Below the pieces are notes generated by a model that had not been told where the DNA came from, searched no databases, and saw nothing but the letters and a program-made list of their open reading frames with translations. 64,000 nt of DNA from assembly GCA_004017535.1 (NCBI GenBank), contig SAJS01000009.1, positions 1 to 64,000 of the forward strand, given 5' to 3'. Position numbers and translations under genes: made by a program. This document shows, in pieces, positions 2,985 to 51,655 of this stretch (its first letter is position 1; the number at the start of each line of letters is the position of its first letter). This DNA comes from Mesorhizobium sp. GTDB lineage: Bacteria > Pseudomonadota > Alphaproteobacteria > Rhizobiales > Rhizobiaceae.

Positions 2985-3605
2985 ATGATCGGCAAGCTGA
3001 AAGGCACGCTGGACGAGATCGACGAGGATAGCTGCGTCATCGACGTGCATGGTGTCGGCTATGTCGCTCATTGCTCGGCGCGCACGCTTGCCGCGCTGCC
3101 GTCGCCCGGCGAAGCGGTGGTGCTGTTCATCGAGACCTATGTGCGCGAGGACATGATCCGGCTCTATGGCTTCCAGAGCGGACTGGAACGCGAGTGGTTC
3201 CGCCTCTTGATGAACAATGTGCAGGGTGTCGGCGCCAAGGTGGCGCTGGCGGTGCTGTCGACGCTGGCGCCGGCCGACCTCGCCAATGCGATCGCGCTGC
3301 GCGACATCGCCATGGTTTCCCGCGCGCCCGGCGTGGGCAAGAAGGTGGCCGAGCGTATCGTCACCGAGTTGCGCACCAAGGCGCCGGCCTATGCGGGCGC
3401 GGCGACCGGCACGATCGGGCTCAAGCAGGAGCTCGGCGAAGGGGTGGCCGCAGAACCGATCACGGATGCGGTCTCGGCGCTCGTCAATCTCGGCTATTCG
3501 CGCGACATTGCAGCGAATGCGGTCGCGGCTGCGCTGAAGTCGGCTGGCGAGGGCGCGGATGCGTCCAAGCTGATCCGCTTCGGCCTCAAGGAACTGGCGC
3601 GGTGA
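2985..3605 (+). CDS. ruvA: Holliday junction branch migration protein RuvA
   Basis: A 206-aa junction-binding subunit that loads the RuvB motor. It begins [26 protein letters not shown], the OB-fold domain I. Domain II carries two helix-hairpin-helix signatures ([15 protein letters not shown] and [14 protein letters not shown]). Domain III (about 155-206, [15 protein letters not shown]) is the RuvB-contacting three-helix bundle. The frame is open from 2889, but the ATG at 2985 is chosen because it gives the canonical N-terminus and sits 7 bases after GAGGGG. Confidence 0.97.
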
Positions 3606-3648
3606 GGCGGCGCTTGTCCCGCCGTCGGTCCTATGCAAGGAAGGCGGC

Positions 3649-4686
3649 ATGAGCCTATCGCCCCGCCTCATTGCCCCCGACAAGCGCGGCGAGGATGTCG
3701 ACCAGACGCTGCGGCCGCAGTCGCTCGACGAGTTCGTCGGCCAGGCGGCGGTGCGCGCCAATCTCAAGGTCTTCGTCGACGCCGCCAAGGGTCGCGGCGA
3801 GGCGCTCGACCATGTGTTGTTCGTCGGCCCGCCGGGGCTAGGAAAGACGACGCTGGCGCAGATCATGGCGCGCGAGCTCGGCGTCAATTTCCGCTCCACT
3901 TCCGGCCCGGTCATCGCCAAGGCCGGTGACCTCGCGGCGCTGCTCACCAATCTTGAGGAGCGCGACGTCCTTTTCATCGATGAGATCCATCGCCTCAATC
4001 CGGCGGTCGAGGAAATCCTCTATCCGGCGATGGAGGATTTCCAGCTCGACCTGATCATCGGCGAGGGGCCGGCGGCGCGCTCGGTCAAGATCGACCTTGC
4101 CCGTTTCACCCTGGTCGCGGCGACGACGAGGCTTGGGCTGCTGACCAATCCGCTGCGGGACCGCTTCGGCATCCCGGTGCGGCTCAATTTCTACACGGTC
4201 GAGGAGCTGGAGCAGATCGTGCGCCGCGGCGCCCGGATCCTTTCGATGCCGCTCGGCGACGACGGCGCGGTCGAGATCGCGCGCCGCGCGCGCGGCACGC
4301 CGCGCATCGCGGGCCGGCTGTTGCGCCGGGTGCGCGACTTCGCCAGCGTCGCCGGCGCCGCGCATGTCGACAGGAAGATCGCAGACGAGGCGCTGACCAG
4401 GCTGGAGGTCGACGCGCTCGGCCTCGACGCGCTTGACCGCCGCTATCTGTCGATGATCGCGCGCAATTTCGGCGGCGGGCCGGTCGGCATCGAGACGATC
4501 GCGGCGGGGCTTTCCGAGCCGCGCGACGCGATCGAGGACATTATCGAGCCATATCTCATCCAGCAGGGCTTCATCCAGCGCACGCCGCGCGGCCGCGTGC
4601 TGACCGCCAATGCCTGGCGGCATCTGGGGCTCGATCCGCCAAAGGATATCGCGCAGCAGCAGATCAGCCTGTTTCACGAAGAGTAA
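3649..4686 (+). CDS. ruvB: Holliday junction branch migration helicase RuvB
   Basis: A 345-aa AAA+ motor that drives branch migration with RuvA. Walker A is GPPGLGKTT (60-68), Walker B is FIDEIHRL (D111-H114), sensor 1 falls in VAATTRLG and the arginine finger in NPLRDRFG. The C-terminal winged helix ([30 protein letters not shown]) binds DNA. It follows ruvA after 43 bp in the same operon. Confidence 0.97.
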
Positions 4687-47449: not shown

Positions 47450-50400
47450 TTATTTCTTCAGCTGGTCGCGCAGGACGGCGAGCTTGGCGAAGGGCGAATC
47501 CGGATCGAAACGCTGCGGGCGTTCCTCGCGCGGCTTGCCCTGGAAGGCCGGCTTGCCGCCCGGAGCGTTGCCTTTGCCTTCCTGCCTGTTGCCCTTCCAG
47601 TCAGGCCGGCCCTCGCGGCGGTCGCCTGCATCCGGCCTCGGCTTGAATTTCGACCGGTCGAAGCGCGGCTTGCCGGCGCCCTCGCGCTGCTCGCGGCGGC
47701 CTTCATGGGCCGGCCGGTCGCCGGGCTGGCCGCCCGCGGCGCCCGTCTGGCTGTCGCGCGCCGGCTGGCCACCGCGCGGGCGATTGTCGCGACGGTTGTC
47801 GTGACGCTGGCGCGGGCGCTGATGGTCGAAACGCGCCTGGCGCCACAGAAGGACAGGCTTCGGTTCTTCAGCCTCGGCCGGTGTTTCGTCGGCCTTACCC
47901 TCCCCCTCGTGGGGAGCGTCGGCGCGCAGCGCCGGGGCGGGGGGAGCGCCGGCCGTACCAGGATCTGCATCGTCGGCACCATCACCCCCACCCGCGTCGC
48001 TTTGCGCCGCGACCTCCCCCATCGAGGGAGAGGTAAGGGCGTCGGCGCCTTCGGCCGCCTCAAGCACTGCAGCGGGGGCTTCCACAGTGGGAACCTCTTC
48101 CGCGACCTCGGCCGCAACTTCTGCCGGCTCTTCAACGGCAGGTTCCGCTGCTGCTTCCGAGCTGGCTTCGGCCGGAACTTCAGCGACAGGTTCCGCCGCT
48201 TCCGCGACGGCTTCAGTCGGAGCTTCGACGGCTGCCGGCTCCGAGCCCTCGGCTGTTGCCTCTGCGACCGCGGCTTGCGCCTCTGTCGCCTGCGCGGCAC
48301 GCGCCGCTTCTTCCACCGCCAGCTTCGCCGCCGCCGCCTCGCGGGCGGCATTGTCCTGGGCTTCGAGCTTCGCCTTCACTTCGGCGGCAGGCTTCGCCTC
48401 GGAACGATAGCCGAGACCCTTGAGGATCTCTTCCATGTCGTCGGCGGTGGCGCCGAGGATCGACATCATCGGCGGCGTCACCATGAAGGCGTGGCCGTCA
48501 TAGGCGCCGTCCGGACGCTGACCGAGACCGGGCTTCCAGTTGGTCGCCGGGCGGATGAGGTCGGCAAGCCGTTCGAGGATATCGACGCGCACGGCGCGGC
48601 GGCCGAGATTGCGGTAGCCGGCGAGCTTGTAGAAGGTCTTGTCGAAGGCCGGGTCGATGACCACCGAGGTGCGGCCGGAGGCCAGCGCATGCACCACGTC
48701 GCCGAAGCCCGGCTTGTCCTTGCCGTCATTCCTCAGCGCCCATAGCAGCGTCACCAGGCCGGCCGGAGCCGGCTTGATCAGCGCCGGCACGAAGACATGG
48801 TAGGCGCCGAAGCGCACGCCGAGCCGGCGGAGCGCGGCGCGGCCTTCCTGATCGAGCGACTTCATCTCCTCCGCGATGTCGCGGCGATTGATCAGGCCGA
48901 AATGCTCGACGAGCTGGAAGGCAATGCCGCGCGCGATGCCGGTGAGCTGGTCGGCATTCTTCAGATCGACCAGGGGCTTCAGCAGCGACTCGATCTGGAA
49001 ATTGACGAAACGCTCGGCACGCGCCGCGACCTTGTCGCGGGCAGGGCCGGTCAGCTGCTCGTCGGCAAGCAAGACAAGGCGCGGCTTCAGCGCCTCGTCG
49101 CCGCCGACCAGCGTGCCGATCGGCGCGCCGATCCAGCGCAGGACGCCGTCGGAGCCCAAGGCCAGGTCGCCATTGGCGCAGGCGGCAAAGCGCTCGGCGC
49201 GCGCGTCGAACTCGGCCGCGAGCGCCTTCTGGGCGGCGGTGCGCACCGCCTTGGCGTCCTCGCCGCCGGCGCTTTGGTCGGCGGTGAAGCGGAACCCCTG
49301 CAACTCGCCGACATGATGGCCTTCGACGAGGACGGTTCCGGTTGGGCTGATTTCGGCTTCAGGCATGGTATTTTCTCTAAGGCGCCGCATGAGGACGGAA
49401 GTCCTGCGGTCTACGAAGCGTTTCGTCAACCGCTCATGCAACGCATCCGACAATCTGTCTTCGATTTCGCGCGTCTTTTCCTGCCAGTGTAGCTGATCGG
49501 CCAGCCATCCGGGGCGGTTGGAGACGAAAGTCCAGGTGCGGATCTGCGCGATCCGGTGCGAGAGCGTGTCGATATCGCCTTCGGTCGTGTCGGCGCGCCG
49601 CACCTGCTCGGCCATGTAATTCTCATCGACATGGCCATGGCGCGCAAGGTCCATATAGATGGAGGCGATGAGGTCGGCGTGCTGGGCCGGCGCGATCTTG
49701 CGGTAGTCGGGGAGCGCGCAGGCTTCCCAGAGCAGCGCGACACGCTCCTTGCCGGTGGCCAAAGCGCGGATGTCGCCGTCCTTCGACAGATGCTCCAGCG
49801 CCTGCGCGTCGACGGCCGGCAGCGCGCGGGTCAGCCCCTCGACCGGCGCATTGGTCTCTGTCGAGCGCTTGAGCGCGTCGAGGCTGGAAAAATCGAAATC
49901 GGCGGTGCGCCATTGCAGCACCTTCACCGGGTCGAAGTCGTGCGCCTCGATCTTGGCGACCAGATCTTCGTCGAACGGGTCGACCTGGCCGGTGACGCCG
50001 AACGTGCCGTCGCGCAGGTGCCGGCCGGCGCGTCCGGCGATCTGGCCGAGCTCGGCCGCGCTCAGGTTGCGGTATTGGTAGCCGTCGAACTTGCGGTTCT
50101 GGGCGAAGGCGACGTGTTCGAGGTCGAGGTTCAGCCCCATGCCGATGGCGTCGGTCGCGACGAGATAGTCGACGTCGCCGGACTGGAAGATCTCCACCTG
50201 CGCGTTGCGGGTGCGTGGGCTAAGCGCGCCGAGCACGACGGCCGCGCCGCCCTGCTGACGGCGGATCAGCTCGGCGATGCCATAGACCTCGTCGGCCGAG
50301 AAAGCGACGATCGCCGTGCGCCGCGGCAGCCGGGTCAGTTTCTTCGAGCCGGAATAGGCAAGATGCGACAGGCGCGGCCGGGTCACCACCGACACGCCCT

Positions 50401-50845
50401 TCAACAGGCGCTGCAGGATGCCATGCATGGTGGCCGCGCCCAGCAGCAGCGTCTCCTGGCGGCCGCGCAGATGCAGGATACGGTCGGTGAAGATATGGCC
50501 GCGCTCGAGATCGCCGGCGAGCTGCACTTCGTCGATGGCGACGAAGGCGGCGTCGGTCTCGCGCGGCATCGCCTCGACGGTGCAGACCGAATATTTCGCG
50601 CCCGCAGGAACGATCTTCTCCTCCCCGGTGATCAGCGCCACCTTGTGGGCGCCGACCTTTTCGCAGACGCGCGCATAGACCTCGCGGGCAAGCAGCCTCA
50701 GCGGCAGGCCGATGATGCCGGTCTCATGCGCGACCATGCGCTCGATGGCGAGATGGGTCTTGCCGGTGTTGGTGGGGCCGAGCACGGCCGTCACGTCGCG
50801 GCCCGAAAGGATCAGCGGCTGGGAGTGTTTCGGCTGGATATTCAT
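47450..50845 (-). CDS. SUV3-like DEx(H/D) RNA helicase with long disordered tail
   Basis: An 1131-aa superfamily 2 helicase resembling mitochondrial SUV3 (SUPV3L1). Walker A is GPTNTGKT (23-30), motif II DEVQ (105-108), motif III GAATMHG and motif VI QIAGRAGR. The helicase and SUV3 C-terminal domains cover about 1-840. From about 850 to 985 the chain is Ala/Glu-rich, followed by a translated palindromic repeat (47893-48038) and an Arg/Gly/Pro/Asp-rich tail ending FAKLAVLRDQLKK. It likely acts on RNA, perhaps with exonucleases. It heads the leftward block helicase-S4-fdxA. Confidence 0.88.
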   Translation of the reverse strand: MNIQPKHSQPLILSGRDVTAVLGPTNTGKTHLAIERMVAHETGIIGLPLRLLAREVYARVCEKVGAHKVALITGEEKIVPAGAKYSVCTVEAMPRETDAAFVAIDEVQLAGDLERGHIFTDRILHLRGRQETLLLGAATMHGILQRLLKGVSVVTRPRLSHLAYSGSKKLTRLPRRTAIVAFSADEVYGIAELIRRQQGGAAVVLGALSPRTRNAQVEIFQSGDVDYLVATDAIGMGLNLDLEHVAFAQNRKFDGYQYRNLSAAELGQIAGRAGRHLRDGTFGVTGQVDPFDEDLVAKIEAHDFDPVKVLQWRTADFDFSSLDALKRSTETNAPVEGLTRALPAVDAQALEHLSKDGDIRALATGKERVALLWEACALPDYRKIAPAQHADLIASIYMDLARHGHVDENYMAEQVRRADTTEGDIDTLSHRIAQIRTWTFVSNRPGWLADQLHWQEKTREIEDRLSDALHERLTKRFVDRRTSVLMRRLRENTMPEAEISPTGTVLVEGHHVGELQGFRFTADQSAGGEDAKAVRTAAQKALAAEFDARAERFAACANGDLALGSDGVLRWIGAPIGTLVGGDEALKPRLVLLADEQLTGPARDKVAARAERFVNFQIESLLKPLVDLKNADQLTGIARGIAFQLVEHFGLINRRDIAEEMKSLDQEGRAALRRLGVRFGAYHVFVPALIKPAPAGLVTLLWALRNDGKDKPGFGDVVHALASGRTSVVIDPAFDKTFYKLAGYRNLGRRAVRVDILERLADLIRPATNWKPGLGQRPDGAYDGHAFMVTPPMMSILGATADDMEEILKGLGYRSEAKPAAEVKAKLEAQDNAAREAAAAKLAVEEAARAAQATEAQAAVAEATAEGSEPAAVEAPTEAVAEAAEPVAEVPAEASSEAAAEPAVEEPAEVAAEVAEEVPTVEAPAAVLEAAEGADALTSPSMGEVAAQSDAGGGDGADDADPGTAGAPPAPALRADAPHEGEGKADETPAEAEEPKPVLLWRQARFDHQRPRQRHDNRRDNRPRGGQPARDSQTGAAGGQPGDRPAHEGRREQREGAGKPRFDRSKFKPRPDAGDRREGRPDWKGNRQEGKGNAPGGKPAFQGKPREERPQRFDPDSPFAKLAVLRDQLKK
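47893..48038. repeat. RIME-like palindromic repeat inside the helicase coding sequence
   Basis: CCTTACCCTCCCCCTCGTGG near the left end and ATCGAGGGAGAGGTAAGG at the right end are near-reverse-complements, with GCGCGCAG/CTTTGCGCC inner arms. In the helicase frame it reads ALTSPSMGEVAAQSDAGGG ... ALRADAPHEGEG, the typical translation of such intergenic repeats. Confidence 0.75.
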
Positions 50846-50885
50846 CGGCTCGGAAATAAGTGTTTCTGCCGCTTTGATTGTTCAA

Positions 50886-50935
50886 GCATGATCTTCTCCG
50901 AAAACCGGTTCCCACTTTTCGGGATCATGCCTTTG
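50886..50935. repeat. Dispersed palindromic repeat
   Basis: GCATGATCTTCTCCGAAAAC with the complementary CTTTTCGGGATCATGC closes a hairpin around CGGTTCCCA. It is related to the element at 2236-2345 and lies just upstream of the helicase gene. Confidence 0.7.
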
Positions 50936-51024
50936 GTCGGAAGCGCGGCGCCGCCGCGTGTGACAGCCGACACATAGGGATTTAGGACGCTGAGCGAAAG
51001 CGGAATGTTCTTTTGGGCAGGCGG

Positions 51025-51453
51025 GAATCGACGGACCCGGTCAAAACCGCCTGCCGTTAACGGCTGGAACGAGTCTGGAACGAATCAGCGACGAATCGCT
51101 GACTCGTTCTGATTCAGGTTTTGTTCACGGCTATATGTGGATTTTTTGACGGTGAGTCTCACCACATGCTGAATCGGGAAACTGGCCCGATTTTGCTTTG
51201 CCTCCGCCGGGATCGAGTCGCCATTAACTTTTGCCGATGAACGGTCGCGGTCGATTCGAGAGCTGCCGTCAAGGTTATGAATTTGTTGATTTTTCTTAAT
51301 CGCTTTTAACGAATTGAGTAACGTTTTGGGCTTCTGCGGTTAACTTTTCGGCCAAAGCCAGAACGAATCGGCGACGAATCAGAGATGCAGGAAGTTTCCC
51401 GGTTTGTTCACCCCTAGATATGGTGTTATCCACAGCTTGCCCACCGAGGATTC
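51025..51453. other. GANTC-dense noncoding region with DnaA-box-like sites
   Basis: Within an ~800-bp interval lacking genes (50846-51655), thirteen GANTC sites fall in 429 bp: 51025, 51071, 51082, 51093, 51101, 51111, 51154, 51171, 51215, 51253, 51365, 51376 and 51449. GANTC is the CcrM methylation site. A duplicated module, GAACGAATCRGCGACGAATC followed by GTTTGTTCAC-type and CTAKATRTGG words, occurs at about 51079-51140 and 51361-51424. An AT-rich stretch (51273-51330) and three TTAACTTTT words accompany them. It looks like a replication or cell-cycle control locus; function is inference. Confidence 0.6.
51426..51434 (+). promoter_or_regulatory. DnaA box (perfect consensus)
   Basis: TTATCCACA matches the DnaA 9-mer exactly. 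A reverse near-match (TGTGGATTT) is at 51136-51144 and weaker TTGTTCAC words are nearby. Confidence 0.55.
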
Positions 51454-51529
51454 ACAGTTTGTCGGAGGGGTTGCGCACAGAGCGCGGCCGGGCCGTTAAC
51501 TTTTGTGTCCTGAATTGAGGCAAGTTGGA

Positions 51530-51626
51530 GCGAATAGAGAGTAGCGAATAGGGAATAGCGATCTGATAGCCGCCGCGCTGACGCCGCCGTTCTTCCCTAT
51601 TCGCTACTCCCTATTCGCTGGTCGCT
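51530..51626. repeat. Palindromic repeat, family C copy 1, downstream of phaB
   Basis: GCGAATAGAGAGTAGCGAAT and GGGAATAGCG on the left are complementary to CCCTATTCGCTACTCCCTAT and CGCTGGTCGC on the right. A related copy lies at 52411-52500. Confidence 0.75.
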
Positions 51627-51655
51627 AACAGGAGCCGCCATGGCGACAAATGCTG

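Follow-up and report, generated by a model that had tools for sequence, protein, structure and literature searches.

A phased array of GANTC-containing modules upstream of a Suv3-type helicase gene in Mesorhizobium and other Alphaproteobacteria

The stretch of Mesorhizobium sp. DNA analysed here (64,000 nucleotides, hereafter the window) contains 13 GANTC sites within 429 noncoding bases, at 51025-51453, and the question is what such a cluster represents. An earlier note, made from the sequence alone, had reported this count, and it is correct; the other 63.6 kb of the window have 95 sites. GANTC is rare in the window as a whole, with 108 sites observed and 316 in shuffled sequences. Under a first-order Markov model, 429 simulated bases had a mean of 2.6 sites (sd 1.6, maximum 9), and 0 of 5000 trials gave at least 13, while the whole intergenic region of 810 bases gave a mean of 4.0 and a maximum of 13. 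A chance origin of the cluster is very unlikely, the figure for the whole intergenic region being less extreme. From the complete chromosome of a relative, G004, 1,970,860 bases (29%) were sampled, and the orthologous locus was the densest window, with 11 GANTC in 429 bp compared with 6 in the runners-up. The second densest place in this sample consists of three adjacent 429-bp windows with 6 sites each (L368, G004:C1:1401130-1404200).

The cluster is located in the intergenic region 50846-51655, between the ATG (50845) of a helicase gene and the end of phbB (51656), both on the minus strand. The helicase is 98% identical over the best segment to three named records, and its named relatives are mostly from Mesorhizobium. 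Among the matches listed, no literature was found on the role of a Suv3-type helicase in these bacteria. The middle of the intergenic region is present in all 24 other genus genomes searched, and its outer parts contain dispersed repeats found in many other places in the genus. The segment 50872-50942 is a dispersed repeat with many copies in the genus and beyond. It is similar to two Rfam 'Brucella sRNA' models (RF02600, RF02599) without reaching the gathering score of either, and these families may thus include a mobile or repeated element. The segment 51529-51619 is a hairpin repeat with 32-nt arms that are 91% complementary, and related copies are located about 0.9 kb past the array, beyond phbB, in several relatives. 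The outer module (module B, below) lies at a variable distance from phbB: 54 loci have values of 207-327, and three have about 1050-1090.

The GANTC cluster is the visible part of a module of about 110 bp, which is present twice upstream of the helicase gene, with cores 283 bp apart. The earlier note had described a duplicated module of about 60 bp; the duplication is real, and its size is larger, about 90 bp, made up of segments of 47 nt (72%) and 28 nt (75%), each repeated at a distance of 283 bp. The features of the locus are as follows.

47450-50845, minus strand: Suv3-type helicase gene (1131 amino acids), which regularly adjoins the array; matches Pfam DEXQc_Suv3 (E 3.8e-26) and Helicase_C; also next to modules in other families and orders.
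51025-51453, no strand: the 13 GANTC sites of the original finding (motif count).
51056-51175, plus strand: module A, with GTTAAC, GAAC-N7-GAAC at 51067-51081 and CGAATC cores at 51081-51086 and 51092-51097 (alignments A2 and A3; profile of 63 first modules).
Within module A, plus strand: further units TTTTGTTCAC at 51119-51128, CTATATGTGG at 51131-51140 and CCACATGCTGAATC at 51162-51175.
51176-51338, no strand: inter-module spacer with an AT-rich stretch, loose in sequence and fixed in length (spacing class 273 or 284).
51339-51423, plus strand: module B, with GTTAAC at 51339-51344, CGAATC cores at 51364-51369 and 51375-51380, TTTGTTCAC at 51403-51411 and CTAGATATGG at 51414-51423 (duplication, alignment A2).
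51426-51456, plus strand: three DnaA-box-like 9-mers in 11-bp steps, TTATCCACA at 51426-51434, TTGCCCACC at 51437-51445 and GGATTCACA at 51448-51456 (read from the sequence).

From the helicase side outward, the module is composed of GTTAAC, GAAC-N7-GAAC, two CGAATCR units 11 bp apart, CTGAC, nTTC, TTYGTTCAC and CnAnATnTnG, and the outermost unit is a second CnAnAT-like site ending in GAATC. The units start about every 11 bp. This anatomy is based on alignments of 25 genus genomes and of 52 family modules (alignment A3, 52 of the 62 listed modules), and on profiles of 63 first and 48 later modules. A sequence-only model, R1, matched module A at 51055-51172 (E 5.6e-28) and module B at 51355-51435 (E 2.6e-13). 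Inside CnAnATnTnG, no palindrome covariation was found (p 0.71 and 0.97). With E up to 1, a model of the helicase-side block matched 11 genomes, a spacer model 8, and module A 63 or more; the flanks within the intergenic region are thus far less conserved than module A. Across the family, GANTC density is 28 per kb in modules, compared with 2.6 in the remainder of the first 800 bases upstream.

Conservation between close species, a check named in the earlier note, is confirmed: the cluster is kept in the genus and far beyond, in the order and in other orders. In the family, 111 genomes have a helicase match, from which 70 upstream regions were taken (30 loci given, 40 fetched). Modules are present in 63 of these regions: one in 19, two in 39, three in 4 and five in 1. 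At locus L242 (G083), five tandem modules, spaced about 276-289 bp, reach more than 1 kb upstream of the helicase gene. The seven regions lacking modules belong to G048, G049, G061, G065, G128, G130 and G142, and a whole-genome search for modules found none in six of them and a best E of 0.06 in G142. With the sequence-only model, 109 of 150 order genomes (64 of 89 genera) have modules, as do 14 of 140 genomes from other alphaproteobacterial orders, two of the latter below E 1e-13. Among 51 stretches fetched from the order and the class, 44 include the helicase gene, and by inspection the orientation of module to helicase is identical in all 44. One of the remaining seven, from G288, has a helicase about 740 bp from the module, in the order rpmB, DUF3108, array, helicase, and an older arrangement of the array near rpmB is possible because of this gene order. 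Other copies are found away from the helicase. G044 has no match to the helicase N-terminus and contains two modules 10.6 kb apart, with rpmB between them, and G342 has a module with no helicase within the 9 kb fetched. In G169, one module is on the helicase side, and three others form a second array near rpmB (L349, G169:C3:65500-72500, modules at 3087-3730). In three genomes of family f35 (L350, L351 and L352), a single module unlinked to the helicase is located just 3' of a GST gene, and G228 has weak modules away from the helicase. Among the open-licence PubMed Central papers listed in searches for an earlier description, none names the element in its title or abstract. Searches of open-licence papers for the literal motif text gave, among the matches listed, only papers unrelated by title.

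The spacing between modules appears to change in steps of roughly one helical turn. Of 76 named loci, 43 have a first module spacing of 272-274 and 31 one of 282-285; the two others, from Pseudaminobacter with three modules, have 247 and 259, and the range 275-281 is empty. These are 76 of 80 named loci, after L135 (a match to the helicase C-terminus) and three loci without a second aligned core were dropped; the conclusions rest on them, since a larger set of 104 loci contains some genomes twice. The spacer has a median pairwise identity of 63%. The extra 11 bases map to four positions in the spacer alignment (34, 4, 1 and 1 of 91 distinct sequences), although their placement is uncertain. 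On the helicase tree, 4 changes of spacing class are needed per class and 5 for all groups together. The tree was made by a quick method and leaves 35 of 73 inner branches open; its well-supported branches force 2 to 3 changes. In the family, 22 of 48 spacings are at 270-275 and 16 at 280-284, and ten fall outside both peaks, three of these at 277-279. Periodicity was not significant in the order and class spacings alone (p 0.15), and significance was lost when each distinct spacing was counted once (p 0.07 for all, 0.42 for the genus). Shared ancestry inflates all of the spacing tests, and the register argument therefore rests on the empty gap at 275-281 and on the repeated changes of class. 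In the family, the distance between the helicase start and the first module shows no phase (R 0.09), although phasing was apparent in the genus; register of the array with the gene start is thus not supported.

The substitutions at the GANTC sites indicate what is conserved in the core. At core site 33, the middle base has 0 substitutions versus 8 at the other four positions in first modules and 0 versus 11 in later modules; at core site 44 these values are 0 versus 1 and 0 versus 0. The middle base never varied at these two sites, and a motif more specific than GANTC is therefore kept there. At site 62, the values are 1 versus 13 in first and 0 versus 16 in later modules. Site 22 has four middle-base substitutions versus none at the other positions, site 122 has 3 versus 1 (first) and 3 versus 4 (later), and site 52 has 1 versus 5 (first) and 4 versus 2 (later). 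Selection would thus be mostly not for GANTC itself at the core, and some selection for GANTC at outer sites is possible, because two outer sites exchange the middle base. In 221 of 222 cases a purine (A or G) follows the CGAATC core, so that the opposite strand reads YGATTCG. The available text of one paper gives YGAKTCG as the GcrA/CcrM consensus and reports no such extended motif in Brevundimonas (PMC7987155). The core YGATTCG falls inside this consensus, and the modules therefore carry the extended site of a GcrA/CcrM-controlled promoter. YGAKTCG accounts for 6 of the 13 GANTC sites in the cluster; elsewhere in the window it accounts for 16 of 95, and in sampled G004 DNA for 297 of 1531. 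For the idea of the earlier note that the locus may be a methylation-gated switch, the evidence is indirect: the cores fit this consensus and keep a motif more specific than GANTC, and the exchanges at two outer sites are compatible with selection for GANTC.

The source genome encodes GcrA (E 1.8e-59). Outside the order, GcrA is above the cut-off in 14 of 14 module-bearing genomes versus 7 of 20 module-free genomes, the latter being the first 20 of 126. GcrA is also present in every module-free family and order genome tested, and it would thus be at most necessary for modules; the two may share their distribution by ancestry. The array is like the GcrA/CcrM-controlled promoters of the Caulobacter type in this co-occurrence and in having YGATTCG sites that CcrM would methylate. 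Unlike these promoters, it has its sites in tandem pairs and in phased modules with a fixed middle base, and in one genome it extends over more than 1 kb.

Tentatively, we favour a reading in which the modules form a cooperative, cell-cycle-linked nucleoprotein array that acts in cis in front of the Suv3-type helicase gene and controls it. This is the best reading because the neighbour and the orientation are fixed, the units recur every 11 bp and the copies are in register. The anatomy of the modules, their conservation, their register and their neighbour are observed; for this model we infer the binding proteins, the role of methylation and the direction of control. Each module would be a row of recognition units about one helical turn apart, an arrangement that would place bound proteins side by side on the same face of the helix. 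The modules, two here and one to five elsewhere, would act together by looping or wrapping, which is probable because they are held in helical register with each other. Cell-cycle proteins would bind the array and set the timing or the strength of helicase production. The CcrM-methylated YGATTCG pair would be read by GcrA or a protein like it, DnaA would occupy the boxes in lineages that have them, and LexA might bind GAAC-N7-GAAC in the first module. When a replication fork passes, the sites would become half-methylated, which would reset the array. Against this reading are the copies away from the helicase, the 7 of 70 family regions without modules, whose genomes have GcrA, the unphased distance to the gene start, and GAAC-N7-GAAC being intact in only 8 of 21 later modules. 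No promoter was identified.

The main alternative is a DnaA control site similar to datA or DARS, which would titrate or recharge DnaA near the origin and have the helicase as a mere neighbour; we regard it as rather unlikely. The earlier note had linked the locus to DnaA. Its exact box, TTATCCACA, is indeed the sole exact match in the window, and its reverse near-box is TGTGGATTT at 51136-51144, with two mismatches. The three 9-mers of the window are at offsets 51, 62 and 73 from the module B core and match the family lattice. The 70 family regions contain 6 exact boxes versus 0.0 expected, and 25 boxes with at most one mismatch versus 4.4 expected. Within 20-100 bases 3' of a module core, 14 of 63 family genomes have 16 such boxes in total, every one of them beyond the last module; 15 of the 16 share one orientation, and 11 of these 15 are at offset 51 modulo 11. 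Their density is 1.77 per kb just 3' of the module versus 0.118 elsewhere in the fetched regions, a 15-fold difference. The 51 order and class loci have 5 boxes 3' of a module (0.78 versus 0.063 per kb), 3 of them in the same orientation, and the lattice is absent there. Within the module, TTYGTTCAC resembles a DnaA box and is the best average match to it (5.1 of 9 bases), on the lattice at offset 29. DnaA of E. coli can line up on low-affinity sites 11 bp apart.

Because of these DnaA-like sites and the copies away from the helicase, a function in chromosome control is possible. Furthermore, hemE is a neighbour of oriC in Rhizobiales, and among 18 further family genomes in which the helicase and hemE share a contig, 16 have them 92-624 kb apart (in G072, which has two copies, the nearer was used; G061 and G065, among the 16, lack modules). 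However, the DnaA link is confined to 14 of 63 family genomes and 5 boxes in the order and class loci, the nearness of hemE may merely follow gene order, and the helicase stays next to the array across orders. The datA and DARS loci of E. coli are noncoding chromosomal sites near the origin with repeats of the DnaA box. The array is like them in being noncoding, in having DnaA-box-like repeats and in its location in the origin-near part of the chromosome, and unlike them in that its boxes are not conserved in most genera, its core is not a DnaA box and it is tied to one gene. Like the RctB sites and crtS of Vibrio, the array lies on the main chromosome and consists of short repeats, each about one turn in length and with a methylase site in it; unlike them, it is also present in single-contig genomes of the group, for example G140.

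Equally improbable, in our estimate, is that the units bind another protein and that the fits to the GcrA, DnaA and LexA motifs are accidental. The middle base of the core GANTC is stricter than YGAKTCG requires, and CnAnATnTnG fits no motif known to us. On the other hand, three short motifs each fit a protein known in the group. We give no more weight to a third possibility, that the modules are an ancient alphaproteobacterial element, older than the order, which would sense methylation state and DnaA at fork passage through its registered modules and independently of the helicase. Such independence is suggested by the copies that are kept in places without that gene.

Another proposal is an SOS operator, in which LexA would bind GAAC-N7-GAAC and the helicase would belong to the DNA-damage response. 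The available text of two papers describes GAAC-N7-GAAC as the alphaproteobacterial LexA box (PMC3091678, PMC9578287). All 61 first modules that have letters at this place keep the box intact, and the recA upstream region has the exact pattern in 6 of 16 genomes. The other 10, including the source genome, lack it; of the later modules with letters at this place, only 8 of 21 keep the box, and most of the conserved module is unexplained by it. The array thus resembles the LexA box in this one motif and differs in keeping it strictly only in the first module, embedded in a much longer conserved row. We consider this reading distinctly improbable. In 1.17 Mb of sampled G004 DNA, direct repeats of GAAC/GTTC reach their minimum at a spacing of 7 bases (14, versus 18-68 at the other spacings from 3 to 12), as would be expected if stray LexA boxes are avoided.

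A set of conserved noncoding repeats in front of a gene could also represent tandem small RNA genes or a structured RNA leader. This is very improbable: none of the 14 pairs predicted for the minus strand (25 modules) and none of the 8 for the plus strand (52 modules) has changes on both sides, and no Rfam match in the region exceeds its gathering score.

Finally, the DnaA box, the GANTC cluster and the AT-rich spacer could be taken for a chromosome replication origin, one of the possibilities named in the earlier note, but this is ruled out almost completely by the distance to hemE and by KOPS polarity. In 6 of 6 complete Mesorhizobium chromosomes, hemE is 426-829 kb from the locus (the nearer of two copies was used in G009). 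By the octamer rule for strand polarity, the KOPS-like octamers GGGNAGGG of G004 switch strand near 60-220 kb and near 3.5 Mb. The likelihood at the locus (6.249 Mb) is 11.2 log units below that of the best origin (60-220 kb), and at hemE (about 0) it is 3.6 below. As a proxy, KOPS places the G004 origin in the hemE region without pinning the exact site. GC skew was too weak to place the origin, and a search for parS with two patterns in 7 genomes found nothing. Of the earlier interpretation, then, the origin falls, the DnaA link holds in part, the evidence on methylation is indirect, and the conservation is borne out.

The noncoding element in front of the helicase gene ties a Suv3-type helicase to cell-cycle motifs. 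The coupling of replication, methylation and expression in Alphaproteobacteria outside Caulobacter is poorly known, and a conserved element built on an 11-bp lattice makes this question testable.
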